Shown here piece after piece: positions 713 to 5,740 of a stretch of 5,913 bases of DNA. Within the stretch, counting starts at the first letter, position 1. Each line of letters begins with the position of its first letter. The stretch comes from Candidatus Alcyoniella australis. GTDB lineage: Bacteria > Lernaellota > Lernaellaia > JAVCCG01 > Alcyoniellaceae. The notes under the pieces are model-generated. The model did not search any database and was not told the DNA's origin. It worked only from the letters and a program-made list of their open reading frames with translations. The position numbers and the translations under genes were made by a program. Where the stretch lies: the NCBI GenBank assembly GCA_030765605.1, contig JAVCCG010000002.1:1-5913 (forward strand), given 5' to 3'.

Positions 713-1738
713 ATGTCAAAGCTGAGCATCAGACCGCTGGACAGCGGGCAGTTCGAGCAAGCCGCGCACGTAGCGGTACGCGAGCATTGCGCACTGTTCG
801 ATGCGCCTGAGCTGCCGCGGCGCGTGAACGAGCTGCACGGCGCTTGGTCTAAGCGTGGCGCGGCCGAGGGAGTTTTTACCGCACTGGACCAGGACGACGG
901 ACTGGCCGGGCTGTGCGTTGTGCGCTGCCGCGAGAACGGCTGGGCCTGGCCTGCCACGCAACGGCTGAGCGGACCGCTGCCGCCGGCAAGTGCGGCCCTG
1001 GAACTGGTCTGGGTGCGGCCCGACTTACGGCGACAGGGTATCGCCGCCGCGCTGGCAGCGCGGGCAGTGGAGTACGCCGCGGCCCGCGCGTGCGACGAGT
1101 TGCTGTGCGAACCCCGGGGCGACAACGGTCTGGACCTTGCTCTGGCCTTAGGATTTGTACAGCGCGGCCGCCAATACCGGCTGTTGATCGACAGCTCTGA
1201 GCACTGCGGCGAGGTGCCGATCGCCCTGCCCCGCAAGCTGGTCCAGCCGCTGTTCAACGCGACGGGCTTTTGGCTGCGGCAAAAACGCGGCGACCCTCAT
1301 GCGCTCTATGGCTACCTTTTTCTATTGTTCGCCTGCGTGCTGCTGCTCTCGCTGCTCGAGCCGGGATGGCGGCAAATAGCACAATCGCTGTTGTTCAACA
1401 GCGCGACCGTGTTGGCCGCAATACTGGCCTGTGCAGTGCTGCTGATCGGCGCGGGCGCGATCTATCGCGCACCCCTGCGTCCGCTGGACGCGCTTAAGCT
1501 ATCGGCCGTCGGCCTAACGATCAGCGGCGCGCTTTGCGCGGCGCTAAGTTTGGCACTGCTAATGGCGGGCGTTGAGTACTCCGCGTTGCCCTCAATGGTC
1601 GGGGTATTGATCTGTTGTTTGGTGCTGGTGCCCGGAGAGCGGCTGTACGGCCGCTGGACCTGGGGCGCGGCACTACTGGCGGCCCTGGCCGCGGGACTCG
1701 TGGCTCAGGAATTGGGAATGTTCAGCCTAAATTATTGA
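713..1738 (+). CDS. GNAT-family acetyltransferase fused to a multi-pass membrane domain
   Basis: A 341-residue protein in two parts. Residues 1-160 look like a GNAT (GCN5-related) N-acetyltransferase. There is a beta strand ELVWVRP (97-103) followed by the acetyl-CoA pyrophosphate-binding loop RRQGIA (106-111) and its helix, then a later GFVQRGRQY segment (147-155) typical of the fold's C-terminal strands. Residues from about 198 to 334 hold roughly five hydrophobic stretches (about 198-216, 228-250, 263-286, 292-307, 315-334), separated by basic or polar turns, so the protein should be anchored in the cytoplasmic membrane. No signal peptide precedes the GNAT part, which should face the cytosol. 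I do not recognise the membrane domain as a named family, and the substrate is unknown. ATG 713 is preferred over an in-frame TTG at 680 because similarity to the fold begins at once; neither start has a Shine-Dalgarno. The 3' end overlaps the convergent iorB by 17 bases. Confidence 0.85.
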   Translation: MSKLSIRPLDSGQFEQAAHVAVREHCALFDAPELPRRVNELHGAWSKRGAAEGVFTALDQDDGLAGLCVVRCRENGWAWPATQRLSGPLPPASAALELVWVRPDLRRQGIAAALAARAVEYAAARACDELLCEPRGDNGLDLALALGFVQRGRQYRLLIDSSEHCGEVPIALPRKLVQPLFNATGFWLRQKRGDPHALYGYLFLLFACVLLLSLLEPGWRQIAQSLLFNSATVLAAILACAVLLIGAGAIYRAPLRPLDALKLSAVGLTISGALCAALSLALLMAGVEYSALPSMVGVLICCLVLVPGERLYGRWTWGAALLAALAAGLVAQELGMFSLNY

Positions 1739-2321
1739 TGAAGCGGCGGCCCGCTTCAAAGGCCCGGGCGTTGACCTCGCGCAGGCGCTCCACAACGCTG
1801 GACACCACGTAATCGCGCAAAGCGTCGCCGGGCAGCGGCAGCACTCCGAGCTCGGCCAACGCTCCACTGAGCACGCTGTTTACAGCCATGGAACTGCCCG
1901 CCTCTTCTGCCAATCTCAGGACGTCAAAGGTCACCAGCCTCGCAACCGAACCCTCGAGCTGCCGCAAACGCGACAGTGCGTCGGGATATTCGCGGTCGGC
2001 CAATGTCAGGCCAAAGGGCACGATCGGCCGCGTGTTGACCAGCAGCGTGGTCTGCGGCCCGACGCGGTCCACAGCGCGCAAAGCCTCCAATGGCTCAAAG
2101 CCGACCAGCACGTCGGCACAGCCGCGACCGACCAGCGGACTGCGCGCCGCACCGATCACCAGCGTGCTGACCACCACACCGCCGCGCTGGCTCATACCGT
2201 GGATCTCGCCCGCCGTGGCCTCGAGCCCGGCGAGCAGCGCGGCCTCGCCCAGCAATCGGGTCATGGTCAGCGAGCCCTGCCCCCCGACTCCCGCGACCAC
2301 GATTTTGCACAGTCCGCTCAT
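1722..2321 (-). CDS. iorB: Indolepyruvate oxidoreductase beta subunit (IorB)
   Basis: A 199-residue cytosolic subunit of indolepyruvate:ferredoxin oxidoreductase, the gamma-type (POR_N/EKR-like) domain that completes the 2-oxoacid oxidoreductase with IorA. The visible signature is an N-terminal IVVAGVGGQGSLTMTRLLGE (residues 7-26) and then EIHGMSQRGG (39-48), both hallmarks of the family. The length matches the usual 190-200 residues, so the gene looks intact. The start at 2321 is set by AGGAGG four bases upstream and by the ATGA overlap with the stop codon of the upstream iorA-like gene, which implies translational coupling and near-equal amounts of both subunits. An in-frame upstream ATG at 2378 would lie inside iorA and is not needed. 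The stop TGA (1724-1722) lies inside the 3' end of the convergent GNAT-membrane gene. Confidence 0.95.
   Translation of the reverse strand: MSGLCKIVVAGVGGQGSLTMTRLLGEAALLAGLEATAGEIHGMSQRGGVVVSTLVIGAARSPLVGRGCADVLVGFEPLEALRAVDRVGPQTTLLVNTRPIVPFGLTLADREYPDALSRLRQLEGSVARLVTFDVLRLAEEAGSSMAVNSVLSGALAELGVLPLPGDALRDYVVSSVVERLREVNARAFEAGRRFINNLG
1739..1758. terminator. Perfect 8-bp hairpin between convergent genes, possible two-way terminator
   Basis: TGAAGCGG and CCGCTTCA form a perfect 8-bp stem around a four-base loop. It begins at the base right after the TGA of the GNAT-membrane gene and lies inside the last codons of iorB. On the minus strand it is followed by an AT-rich stretch (TCAATAATTT), a weak U-tract. 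On the plus strand AAAGGCCC follows, so no U-tract is present in that direction. A terminator role is inferred from position and symmetry. Confidence 0.35.
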
Positions 2322-5300
2322 TGCGCCTCCTGGACCTTCACGGGCCGGATCGCGCCGTTGGGACAGACCTGCACGCATACTCCGCAGCCGTCGCAGAGCA
2401 CCGGGTCGATGGCAATTTTACCGTCGCGGCGCACGAACGCCGGACAGCCGAGCAGGTCCAGGCAGGCTTGGCACGTGGCGCAGATCCCGCAGGTCAGACA
2501 GCGCCGCGCCTCGCGCTGCGCCGATTGGATATCGAGCACGCCCCTGGTCGGCTCGAAATCTTTGCTGCGCAATTCGGCCTCGCGCTGCGGCGGGCTGATG
2601 CGTTGTTGAGTCGTCACGCCGCCGGGCGCGTACCGGGGCTCCTCGCGCCAGCGCTCGCGCTCGGGCTCGATCTCGCGCAGCACCGGGTCCGCGCTGAGCA
2701 ACAGGTCGATGCCGTATGCCGCGCGTTTGCCCGCTGCCATGGCCTGGACCACGCTTGAGGGTCCGCTGACCACGTCGCCGGCCGCGAACACGTCCGCAAC
2801 GCTGGTGGCGCCGGTCTGTTCGTCAACGCGCACCCAGCCCCACTTGTCGACATCGATTTGTTTTTTTCCGCAACGCGGAAGCAACGGACGCTGGCCCACG
2901 GCAAAGACGATCGAGTTGGCTTCCAGCACGCTCTCGCTGCCCTGGACCACCACCGGCCGCGCTCGTCCCGAGGCATCGAGTCGGCCCGGCTCGGTGCGTA
3001 CGATCTCGAGCCCGGCGACACGACCATCCGTCGTCAGCACCCGCGTGGGGGCACTCCAGCTCAGCAGCTCGACCCCCTCTTCCAGCGCGTCGGCGATCTC
3101 CTGCGCGTCGGCAGGCATTTGCTCGACGCCGCGGCGGTAAACGACCTTGACCCCGCTCGCGCCAAGTCGCAGGGCCACGCGCGCCGCGTCGATCGCCGCG
3201 TTGCCTCCACCGATTACCAGCACGCGATCGCCAAGCTCTATCGCGCTTCCCAGGCGCTGCGCACGCAGCATCTCCAGGGCGCTGATGCAGCCCGTCGCTG
3301 TCTCGCCCTCGATTCCGGGCCTGGTGCCGATCATTGCGCCGCAGGCCAGCAGCAGCGCGTCATATTGATCGGCGAACAGCTCGGCCAAATCATCAATACG
3401 GCGACCGGACTCGAACTCGATCCCCGCGCCTTGCAGCATCTGCAGATCGCGCTCAAGCACTGCGCGCGGCAGCCGGTATTCGGGAATCGCCCATGCCGGT
3501 ATTCCGCCGATCAGCGGCTGCGCGTCGAACACCCGAACCTGGAAGCCGCGCAGGCGAAGATCGAACGCTCCGGCCAATCCTGCCGGGCCCGAGCCGATCA
3601 CGGCCACGCGTCCTTTGTCGGTCGGCAATGCGGACCAACGCTGGATCAGCGCGGCCCGCGCCGCGTCGCTCTCCAACTCTGCGGCCGCTGCCTTGAGATC
3701 GCAGATCGCCACAGGCTCGTCAAAATCGTTACGCACGCAGGCTGCTTCACACGGCCGGTGGCAAACCCGGCCGAGCACGCCGGGCAAACAGGCGCGCTGC
3801 CGCACCAGAGCGGTTGCCGCGTCCGCGTCCCCGGCTGCGAGCTGAGTTATGTAGCCCTGAACGCAGATTGTCAGCGGGCACTCGGTACTGCACGGCGGAT
3901 GGAGCATTTTTTCCGCGGCCGAGCCTGTCAAATAATCATCCAGCCCCTGCGGCCCGTGCTCCACACGGCGGCGCGCACGCTCTAGCTCGTAGCCCTTGGA
4001 AATCGTCTGCTCGCATTTGTGGCATTGCTCATCAGCCATGCCGCAGTTGCGGCACAGCTCGGGATCAACTTCAAAAACAGTGCGCTCTTTGCTCTGCCCA
4101 AGCACCCGACGCTCAAACAGCGGGCACGGGCTGCGGCTGATCAGCACGCGCAGGCCCGGCAGCTCGAGCAGCTCCTCGACCGCTTGCTTGGTAATGCGCG
4201 CGTCGCTGGGGTCGACCACGCGAATCTGCCTTACTCCCAAGCCGCGCAACGCAGCCTCGATGTCGACCTGCTGCTGCCCCTGCTTCACGTCGGGCGAACC
4301 GGGATGCGGCTGGTGTCCGGTCATGCCGGTGGTCGAGTTGTCGAGCACCACCAGCAGCGCTTCTCCGGCGTTGCGCACCGCGTTGACCACGCCGGTGAGC
4401 CCCGAGTGGAACAGCGTCGAGTCGCCGATAAAGGCGATCATCGGCCGGTCGACCACGCGCCCCATGCCCACCGCCTGGTTGATCGAGGCGCCCATGCAGA
4501 AGAACAGGTCGCCGATCTCGATCGGCGGAGCAAAGCCCAGGGTGTAGCAACCGATGTCGGTCATGTACAGCGCGTCGGGCCCGGCTGCGAGCTTGACCGC
4601 GAAGTAGGTCGCGCGATGCGGGCAGCCCGCGCAGAGCTGCGGCGGACGGCCCGGCAGATCAACCGGCGACTCCATCACAGGCACGGCGCGCGACAGCTCG
4701 AGCTCGCGGCCCAAGGCGTCGAGCAGTTCTTCGACTCCCAGCTCTCCCAGGCGCGAGGTGTGACCGCTGTGCTTGCCCAGTACCGGCTTGAGCTTGCCCG
4801 AGCGCGCGAGCTGCAATTGCAGCTGCTCCTCCATGTACGGCTCGAGCTCCTCGATTACCAGCACGCGCTGGACGCGCTGAATCAGCCGCGCCACCTGCTC
4901 CTCGGGCCAGGGATGGATTACGCCCAGCCGCAGGATCGTCACGCGTTCAAGCAGATCAAGTTCGCGGCAGATGTCGATCAACGCCGCGCTCACCGCGCCG
5001 GAGCTGAGCAACCCCAATGGACCCTCGCCGATCAGCTCAAAAAACTCCGATCTTTGGCTGATCTGCGCGGCGCGCTCAAGCCGCTCGATCAGCACCGGAT
5101 GCCGTTTGCGCGCGATGGCCGGCACCGGCACAAAGCTCTGCGGATCGCGTTGAAACACGCCGCTGCGTTGCGGCGGAAGCAGATCGTCAAAGGTCACCGT
5201 GCCGCGGGCGTGACTCAGCCGCGTGGTGGTGCGCAGGATTACCGGCAGCCGCACCTGCTCGCTGAGATCAAAGGCGTAGGCCGTCATGCGCCGCGCCTCG

Positions 5301-5740
5301 TCCGGGGTATGCGGCTCGAGCAGCGGCAGGCCTGATAGCCGCGCGTAGTAGCGGTTGTCCTGCTCGTTCTGGCTGGAGTGGCAGCCCGGATCGTCGGCGC
5401 TGACCAGCACGAATCCGGCGTTGGTGCCGGTGTAAGCGAATGTCATCAGCGGGTCTGCGGCCACGTTGACGCCCACGTGCTTCATCGCACACAGCGAGCG
5501 AGCGCCGCCCACGGCCGCAGCAGCGGCCAGCTCCAGCGCCACTTTCTCGTTGACCGCGTACTCGAAGTAAATCTGCGCCTCGCTCGCCAGGGAGTTCAGC
5601 GTGTCGCCGATCTCGCTGGCCGGCGTGCCCGGATAGGTCGTGGCCAGGGCCAGTCCGGCCTCCAGCGCACCGCGCACTATCGCCTGGTTACCCAGCAGCA
5701 ATAGGCGTTTTCCCGGTGTCGGATCTAGCAAAGGATGCAT
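2318..5740 (-). CDS. iorA: IorA-type indolepyruvate oxidoreductase alpha subunit fused to a GltD/NfnB-like FAD-NAD(P) module
   Basis: A 1140-residue cytosolic protein, against about 600 for ordinary IorA, which converts aryl-pyruvate and CoA to aryl-acetyl-CoA and CO2. Residues 11-550 are IorA: YPGTP (36-40), NEK with the probable catalytic Glu65, HSSQNEQDNRYYA (121-133), CAGCPHR (370-376), GCYTLG (397-402), and the thiamine-diphosphate motif GDST (439-442) to N468. Next comes a CxxC-x6-CxxC site (C563-C576). Residues about 612-690 are a GltD-type iron-sulfur domain (C617, C621, C660, C664, C668). Residues 710-1010 hold the FAD motif GSGPAG (716-721), the NAD(P) motif GGGN (844-847) with YRR (868-870) suggesting NADPH, and AGDVVSGP (987-994). 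The tail (1081-1126) is a two-cluster ferredoxin domain ending CxxCxxCxxxCP. ATG 5740 is chosen; a TTG at 5749 overlaps the predicted -10. Reading is continuous, so this is a true in-frame fusion. Direct NAD(P) coupling is inferred. Confidence 0.93.
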   Translation of the reverse strand: MHPLLDPTPGKRLLLLGNQAIVRGALEAGLALATTYPGTPASEIGDTLNSLASEAQIYFEYAVNEKVALELAAAAAVGGARSLCAMKHVGVNVAADPLMTFAYTGTNAGFVLVSADDPGCHSSQNEQDNRYYARLSGLPLLEPHTPDEARRMTAYAFDLSEQVRLPVILRTTTRLSHARGTVTFDDLLPPQRSGVFQRDPQSFVPVPAIARKRHPVLIERLERAAQISQRSEFFELIGEGPLGLLSSGAVSAALIDICRELDLLERVTILRLGVIHPWPEEQVARLIQRVQRVLVIEELEPYMEEQLQLQLARSGKLKPVLGKHSGHTSRLGELGVEELLDALGRELELSRAVPVMESPVDLPGRPPQLCAGCPHRATYFAVKLAAGPDALYMTDIGCYTLGFAPPIEIGDLFFCMGASINQAVGMGRVVDRPMIAFIGDSTLFHSGLTGVVNAVRNAGEALLVVLDNSTTGMTGHQPHPGSPDVKQGQQQVDIEAALRGLGVRQIRVVDPSDARITKQAVEELLELPGLRVLISRSPCPLFERRVLGQSKERTVFEVDPELCRNCGMADEQCHKCEQTISKGYELERARRRVEHGPQGLDDYLTGSAAEKMLHPPCSTECPLTICVQGYITQLAAGDADAATALVRQRACLPGVLGRVCHRPCEAACVRNDFDEPVAICDLKAAAAELESDAARAALIQRWSALPTDKGRVAVIGSGPAGLAGAFDLRLRGFQVRVFDAQPLIGGIPAWAIPEYRLPRAVLERDLQMLQGAGIEFESGRRIDDLAELFADQYDALLLACGAMIGTRPGIEGETATGCISALEMLRAQRLGSAIELGDRVLVIGGGNAAIDAARVALRLGASGVKVVYRRGVEQMPADAQEIADALEEGVELLSWSAPTRVLTTDGRVAGLEIVRTEPGRLDASGRARPVVVQGSESVLEANSIVFAVGQRPLLPRCGKKQIDVDKWGWVRVDEQTGATSVADVFAAGDVVSGPSSVVQAMAAGKRAAYGIDLLLSADPVLREIEPERERWREEPRYAPGGVTTQQRISPPQREAELRSKDFEPTRGVLDIQSAQREARRCLTCGICATCQACLDLLGCPAFVRRDGKIAIDPVLCDGCGVCVQVCPNGAIRPVKVQEAQ
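2326..2331 (-). promoter_or_regulatory. Ribosome binding site of iorB inside the iorA-like gene
   Basis: AGGAGG on the minus strand, four bases before the iorB ATG, lies within the last Gln-Glu-Ala codons of the upstream gene. It decides the iorB start and supports coupled translation. Confidence 0.8.

Follow-up and report, generated by a model that had tools for sequence, protein, structure and literature searches.

The stretch of DNA that we analysed (hereafter the window) is an entire 5,913-bp contig of a draft genome (4.29 Mb, 98% complete). It carries an uninterrupted reading frame of 1,140 residues on the minus strand (start codon ATG at 5740, stop codon TGA at 2318), in which a GltD-type flavoprotein module lies inside IorA, the alpha subunit of indolepyruvate oxidoreductase (IOR). 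The start of the predicted protein, MHPLL, is near-identical in sister genomes. The gene for the partner subunit, iorB, follows with an overlap, and it also adjoins the fusion gene in L039–L043, L095 and L096. The contig ends ~160 bp upstream of iorA, and genes farther upstream lie outside our view. The features of the two genes, all on the minus strand, are as follows.

2318..5740, minus strand: iorA-gltD fusion gene, 1,140 residues, a single open frame conserved in 13 other proteins
1722..2321, minus strand: iorB, 199 residues, sharing an ATGA overlap with the fusion gene; POR family match of 113.5 bits
4091..5710, minus strand: IorA thiamine-diphosphate (TPP) part, residues 11–550 (TIGR03336; Pfam POR_N and TPP_enzyme_C)
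4001..4075, minus strand: left junction, residues 556–580, where C563 and C566 form the opening half of the first ferredoxin motif of IorA, and C576 (comparison with 28 stand-alone IorA)
3671..3907, minus strand: GltD cluster region, residues 612–690, with C617, C621, C626, C660, C664, C668 and K683 (Fer4_20; residue alignment to NfnB and StnC)
3692..3694, minus strand: K683, equivalent to StnC K170 and NfnB E117 (residue alignment; invariant in 14 fusions)
2690..3628, minus strand: FAD domain with a nested NAD(P) domain, residues 705–1017 (Pyr_redox_2; superposition on NfnB, Z 38.6)
3131..3139, minus strand: YRR motif, residues 868–870, predicted NADP(H) phosphate site (meaning from PMC7596348)
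2486..2593, minus strand: permuted segment, residues 1050–1085, equivalent to the NfnB N-terminus, with C1081 and C1084 as NfnB C39 and C42 (profile match)
2348..2482, minus strand: IorA two-cluster ferredoxin tail, residues 1087–1131 (comparison with stand-alone IorA tails; Fer4)

Two other genes lie in the window. A convergent plus-strand gene (680–1738) encodes a GNAT-type protein, an acetyltransferase domain followed by a hydrophobic C-terminal half that has no Pfam match and probably spans the membrane. A minus-strand gene (3–557), truncated by the contig end, encodes a metallo-beta-lactamase-fold hydrolase.

The domain content of the fusion was clear from family models. NCBIfam TIGR03336 (IorA) matches residues 12–568 at 673.5 bits, above its cut-off of 650.9, and covers positions 2–557 of the 595 in the profile. 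PRK12771, a model of a GltD-like NAD(P)-binding protein, matches residues 612–1132 at 427 bits, under its cut-off of 516. Pfam finds, in order, POR_N (24–186), TPP_enzyme_C (395–530), Fer4_20 (614–690), Pyr_redox_2 (711–1004, 105 bits) and Fer4 (1110–1132), and both Pfam and superposition of the predicted structure identify FAD and nested NAD(P) Rossmann domains of the GltD/NfnB type. An earlier, sequence-only reading of this DNA had described the same anatomy of IorA, a GltD/NfnB-like flavoprotein and a ferredoxin tail in one frame, and NCBIfam and Pfam confirm it; the cysteine cluster and the glycine motifs for FAD and NAD(P) also stand at the positions that it gave. The TPP part of the fusion is the only full IorA-like one found in the window's genome (G000); apart from it, the search hit GltD-like proteins and short stretches resembling KorA or ferredoxin.

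The same reading had suggested that the flavoprotein was inserted into IorA, and comparison with 28 stand-alone IorA proteins supports this and gives the exact point. The tails of the stand-alone proteins follow the pattern VDPxKCxxCxxCLxxxGCPA ... IDPxLCxGCGxCxQVCPxxAI. The fusion instead reads FEVDPELCRNCG, then ~520 residues, then CQACLDLLGCPAF ... IDPVLCDGCGVCVQVCPNGAI, so that the insert interrupts the first ferredoxin motif of IorA after the second cysteine and before the third. The end of the insert, RCLTCGICATC, restores this motif, and we assign the ferredoxin tail of the fusion to IorA itself on this pattern. The tail has the two CxxCxxC-CP motifs of an IorA C-terminal ferredoxin domain, the first formed by C1087, C1090, C1093 and C1099 and the second by C1116, C1119, C1122 and C1126, and all eight cysteines are invariant in 14 fusions. 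At the left junction C563, C566 and C576 are likewise present in 14 of 14, and C573 occurs only in the window's protein. These three cysteines are kept even though no ligand is missing from the rebuilt ferredoxin motif or from the GltD clusters.

The inserted module differs from NfnB in the order of its parts. In NfnB the distal cluster is held by C39, C42, C47 and C100, and the proximal cluster by C51, C90, C96 and E117 (PMC7596348). Residue alignment pairs C617, C621, C660, C664, C668 and K683 of the fusion with Thermotoga maritima NfnB C47, C51, C90, C96, C100 and E117, and shows no counterparts of C39 and C42 immediately before C617. A profile of fusion residues 1050–1085, however, matches the NfnB N-terminus (5jca_L 12–45, E 4.7e-9; 4ylf_B 10–42, E 1.3e-5), as well as the permuted position in StnC and in the NfnABC proteins of Thermococcus sibiricus and of Caldicellulosiruptor. 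The missing pair and this match together identify C1081 and C1084 as C39 and C42, and the GltD module is, by these alignments, circularly permuted, as in StnC and NfnABC. The ligand set for two [4Fe-4S] clusters is thus complete, with K683 replacing E117 as it does in StnC. We had considered the C563/C566 pair as a substitute for the lost distal-cluster ligands and dropped this idea, as C1081 and C1084 fill those positions by permutation. The correspondences predict that a single [4Fe-4S] cluster takes ligands from both ends of the insert. Since the ends meet there, and C1087, the first cysteine of the rebuilt IorA motif, follows C1084 by three residues, the GltD distal cluster and the clusters of the IorA tail are likely to be adjacent. 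Across the 14 fusions K683 does not vary, and neither do the TPP-part cysteines that we compared or the cluster cysteines other than C573.

An AlphaFold2 model of the fusion chain alone (54 sequences; mean pLDDT 88.7, pTM 0.72, with low confidence at residues 350–370) agrees with these assignments. VIA-align ranked 9bov_A, 9n5v_A and 8oh5_C first for residues 606–1131 (Z 45–47 over ~470 residues), with NfnB next. Residues 610–1131 superpose on StnC with Z 45 over 471 residues, and the model superposes on NfnB (5jca_L) with Z 38.6 over 399 residues and an rmsd of 1.8. Residues 9–355 retrieved 2-oxoacid oxidoreductases (Z ~33).

The sequence-only reading had called for a search for the same architecture across genomes, and this search returned 13 other full-length or nearly full-length proteins. 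The resulting 14 fusions (~40–51% identity), together with two broken copies, come from Myxococcota, Planctomycetota and Acidobacteriota, and from the small phylum to which the window itself belongs. Within that phylum six of the seven genomes examined carry the fusion, intact in four and broken in G006 and G005; it was not found in the seventh, G001. Elsewhere it occurs in two of ~379 sampled genomes (G212 and G123; the whole sample numbers 386), and the G123 copy, which begins at the edge of a contig, is short of ~27 residues. When 84,980 named genomes were scanned with an alignment of the junction, at least 586 relatives emerged, and among the best 80, which we examined, at least eight are full-length fusions, labelled as three to four Myxococcota (L100, L101, L104, L107), Acidobacteriota (L102) and Planctomycetota (L105, L124, L138). 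A scan of genome contigs with a single fusion protein as the query found no fusion; the junction alignment found them. The fusion is therefore rare but conserved.

This recurrence in many independently assembled genomes excludes an artefact, and we reject both a misassembly and two genes that have lost a stop codon. The split copies are unlikely to represent a natural two-gene state: the one in G006 is interrupted by a run of N, and the one in G005 is frameshifted near residue 550, with no evident start codon for its second half. The L124 protein has an 848-residue extension without any Pfam match; in this high-GC DNA it is probably a spurious frame upstream of the true start.

In trees, the GltD halves of 16 fusions (the two broken copies included) form one clade against 37 other proteins, with support of 100/99. 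The IorA halves also cluster, but a stand-alone IorA, L015, nests among them, so there is no fused-only IorA clade. The tail of this protein (L015, 1495–3360, plus strand, in G029), GCGEKGECNNCLDTLACPAF, retains the C1084-to-C1090 spacing of the fusion, which is at most a suggestion that it is the scar of a lost GltD insert. The simplest history to be read from these trees would be one fusion event, spread between phyla and at least one possible loss.

We found no earlier description of an IorA-GltD fusion in the open-licence papers that we searched, and one may exist elsewhere; a one-protein fusion of this kind seems to be undescribed. By its alignments it belongs with IorA, as an IorA carrying an inserted StnC-type GltD module. 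It shares with IorAB (TIGR03336/TIGR03334) the TPP-binding IorA part, the two-cluster ferredoxin tail and the adjacent, overlapping iorB, and differs from it in the ~520-residue flavoprotein within the first ferredoxin cysteine motif and in a predicted acceptor that is NADP+ and not only free ferredoxin. The closest solved structures, StnC of the Sporomusa ovata StnABC complex and NfnABC of Caldicellulosiruptor and T. sibiricus (8oh5_C, 9bov_A, 9n5u_A), have the same permuted order, the RCLxCG motif on the C-terminal side and the lysine at the proximal cluster. They continue, however, into NuoG/FdhF-like domains (StnC, PMC10482914) and have bifurcating AB partners, whereas the module of the fusion sits inside IorA and is followed by the IorA tail. 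DsrL also combines a GltD fold with a C-terminal two-cluster ferredoxin, and DsrL-2 has YRR for NADP(H), but DsrL is a separate gene with a sulfite reductase partner and has a glutamate, not a lysine, as proximal ligand (PMC7596348). The authors of the DsrL study left out comparable genes where they were linked to genes for pyruvate/ketoisovalerate ferredoxin oxidoreductase (PMC7596348), so unfused pairs of GltD and 2-oxoacid oxidoreductase were already known. DsrL is defined by a genome that also has dsrAB and by the lack of such a link (PMC7596348), and the module described here, being fused to IorA, falls outside that definition.

A working precedent comes from Azoarcus evansii, whose 2-oxoglutarate:NADP+ oxidoreductase, in the passage of PMC10134865 that cites Ebenau-Jehle et al. 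2003, reduces NADP+ through a GltD-like iron-sulfur flavoprotein. According to the same passage the KorAB enzyme carries this protein as a subunit of its own (PMC10134865), unlike the module of the fusion. Aromatoleum buckelii has a similar arrangement, with consecutive genes for a GltD-like protein, KorA and KorB (L172, 7061–11741, plus strand), and its GltD-like protein forms a long branch apart from the fused modules. The window's genome itself holds an unfused relative on another contig (L097, contig C4, ~9177–13575, minus strand), an operon of POR gamma, a GltD-ferredoxin protein of 588 residues with YRR, KorA and KorB. Covalent fusion of a 2-oxoacid oxidoreductase to an NADP+ reductase is known from Euglena PNO; there, unlike the GltD-type module inserted in IorA, an unrelated flavodoxin/FNR-type reductase stands at the C-terminus of PFOR. 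By analogy, the fusion would share its mode of action with the NADP-linked 2-oxoacid oxidoreductases made of several subunits and, in principle, with PNO.

The nucleotide specificity of the fusion can be predicted from its YRR motif, which is a phosphate-binding motif in NADP(H)-using NfnB and DsrL-2 (PMC7596348) and leads us to favour NADP over NAD. Ten of the 14 fusions have YRR; CLE takes its place in L104, L072 and L124, and L073 has a shortened version, so a subset of fusions may use NAD. The GltD subunit of the Aromatoleum kor operon carries VRS where YRR would be expected, and YRR may therefore not be the sole solution for NADP.

The arrangement of ligands in the insert and the tail suggests a continuous path from TPP through the clusters of the ferredoxin tail and those of the GltD module to FAD and NADP+. 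We consider it reasonably probable that the fusion is a self-contained 2-oxoacid:NADP+ oxidoreductase that reduces NADP+ directly; its substrate is probably an arylpyruvate. The enzyme would consist of two subunits, the IorA-GltD fusion and IorB, and would be a CoA-acylating 2-oxoacid oxidoreductase. IorA and IorB would decarboxylate the 2-oxoacid on TPP to yield the acyl-CoA, and the electrons would pass one by one to the two predicted [4Fe-4S] clusters of IorA's C-terminal ferredoxin domain. From there they would reach the distal [4Fe-4S] cluster of the permuted GltD module (C617, C668, C1081, C1084), then the proximal cluster (C621, C660, C664 and K683) and then FAD, which would transfer a hydride to NADP+ at the YRR site. 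Direct delivery of electrons to NAD(P), one of the options raised by the sequence-only reading, thus becomes the leading hypothesis, and the window bears out its observation that no separate electron-transfer gene is visible next to the fusion.

Electrons might instead leave by two routes, if the IorA tail served free ferredoxin as well as the built-in flavin. The enzyme would then be an indolepyruvate:ferredoxin and a ferredoxin:NADP+ oxidoreductase in one, with NADP+ as one of two outlets. The complete two-cluster tail has been retained, invariant, and not replaced, and in stand-alone IorA proteins, which have the same tail, ferredoxin is taken to be the acceptor. The window's genome also encodes RnfC, a ferredoxin user, with a score above its cut-off, so a ferredoxin route is available as an alternative electron sink. 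The tail clusters, however, would lie covalently beside the GltD distal cluster and may be buried as internal relays only, and no ferredoxin gene stands beside iorAB within the window; we regard this branched arrangement as unlikely. A bifurcating or confurcating enzyme, in which the GltD FAD acts like the bifurcating flavin of NfnB and links the oxidation of arylpyruvates to both ferredoxin and NAD(P), was another option of the earlier reading, and here our evidence points the other way. Oxidation of a 2-oxoacid with NADP+ is already exergonic, which makes such coupling unnecessary. The module and NfnB (5jca_L, Z 38.6) are homologues, the closest solved relatives of the module belong to the bifurcating complexes StnABC and NfnABC, and R756 aligns with the conserved arginine near FAD N5 (PMC10482914), a residue that is kept in both types and does not discriminate between them. 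NfnAB has a glutamate at the proximal cluster, and all 14 fusions have K683 there. StnC has the same permuted order, its K170, the equivalent of K683, is a ligand of the proximal cluster, its FAD is non-bifurcating, and bifurcation takes place in StnAB (PMC10482914). No NfnA-, StnA- or StnB-like gene adjoins iorAB in the window, which ends ~160 bp upstream, and the sister stretches, whose neighbouring genes are annotated in part, show iorA-iorB with no obvious flavoprotein partner. The StnC-type lysine and the lack of a visible partner gene make bifurcation by the GltD flavin quite improbable.

The three orphan cysteines allow a further reading, to which we give the least credence: C563, C566 and C576 would bind a fifth cluster that forms a second, low-potential outlet from the flavin, so that one polypeptide with IorB would split the electron pair of arylpyruvate between NADP+ and ferredoxin. 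Such a 2-oxoacid-driven bifurcating or branching enzyme would be of a kind that is not known so far. As for direction, it is improbable to much the same degree as a bifurcating GltD flavin that the enzyme runs in reverse, an option that the earlier reading had also raised; NADPH would then drive a reductive carboxylation that turns arylacetyl-CoA into arylpyruvate, as a precursor of amino acids. NADPH (roughly -320 to -370 mV) is a weak donor to a couple near -500 mV, which makes this the thermodynamically harder direction, although a YRR motif would point to NADP(H), the pool that is the more reducing. Reverse operation of IORs has been proposed for methanogens (PMC13285125). Several relatives, by contrast, lie in operons with genes for acyl-CoA dehydrogenase, B12 mutase and CoA-transferase, which suggests catabolism.

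These operons bear on the substrate as well. In a subgroup of five (L095, L096, L102, L104 and L124) hydantoinase A/B-like genes lie downstream of the fusion gene, as do genes for acyl-CoA dehydrogenase, B12 mutase and CoA-transferase III at those loci that are long enough to show them. The gene order in L104 is ATC_hydrolase, IorA-GltD, IorB, hydantoinase A, hydantoinase B, acyl-CoA dehydrogenase; L096 adds a B12-binding protein, a methylmalonyl-CoA-mutase-like protein and CoA-transferase III. This gene order possibly represents an undescribed catabolic pathway, and the substrate may thus not always be an arylpyruvate. The score of IorB, which falls under the NCBIfam equivalog cut-offs, adds to the uncertainty about an aryl substrate. 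The mechanism that we favour could accordingly act on a non-aryl 2-oxoacid, for example a branched-chain one, and the name 'indolepyruvate' would then be wrong. This possibility bears on the substrate alone and overlaps the other readings. We hold it to be possible but somewhat doubtful, given that the IorA part scores above its IOR-alpha equivalog cut-off and that the hydantoinase-type operon is not seen at the window's own locus. None of the nine genomes searched had a match over the cut-off for phenylacetate-CoA ligase (TIGR02155). COX1 was found in G001, G003, G005, G212 and G123 and was not found in G000, G002, G004 and G006.

Oxidoreductases of IorA's superfamily are normally tied to ferredoxin, and further enzymes are usually needed to reach NADPH. 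If the mechanism that we favour is correct, NADPH would be reached by a compact route, with the oxidation of keto acids and an NADP+ reductase combined in one chain. The fusion would also illustrate cleanly how a domain can be inserted at an iron-sulfur motif, enabled by circular permutation, in which the ends of the insert share one cluster beside the host's own. With members in several phyla, in genomes where COX1 was found and in others where it was not, and in predicted NADP and NAD variants, the fusions offer a natural series in which to study the evolution of acceptor choice.
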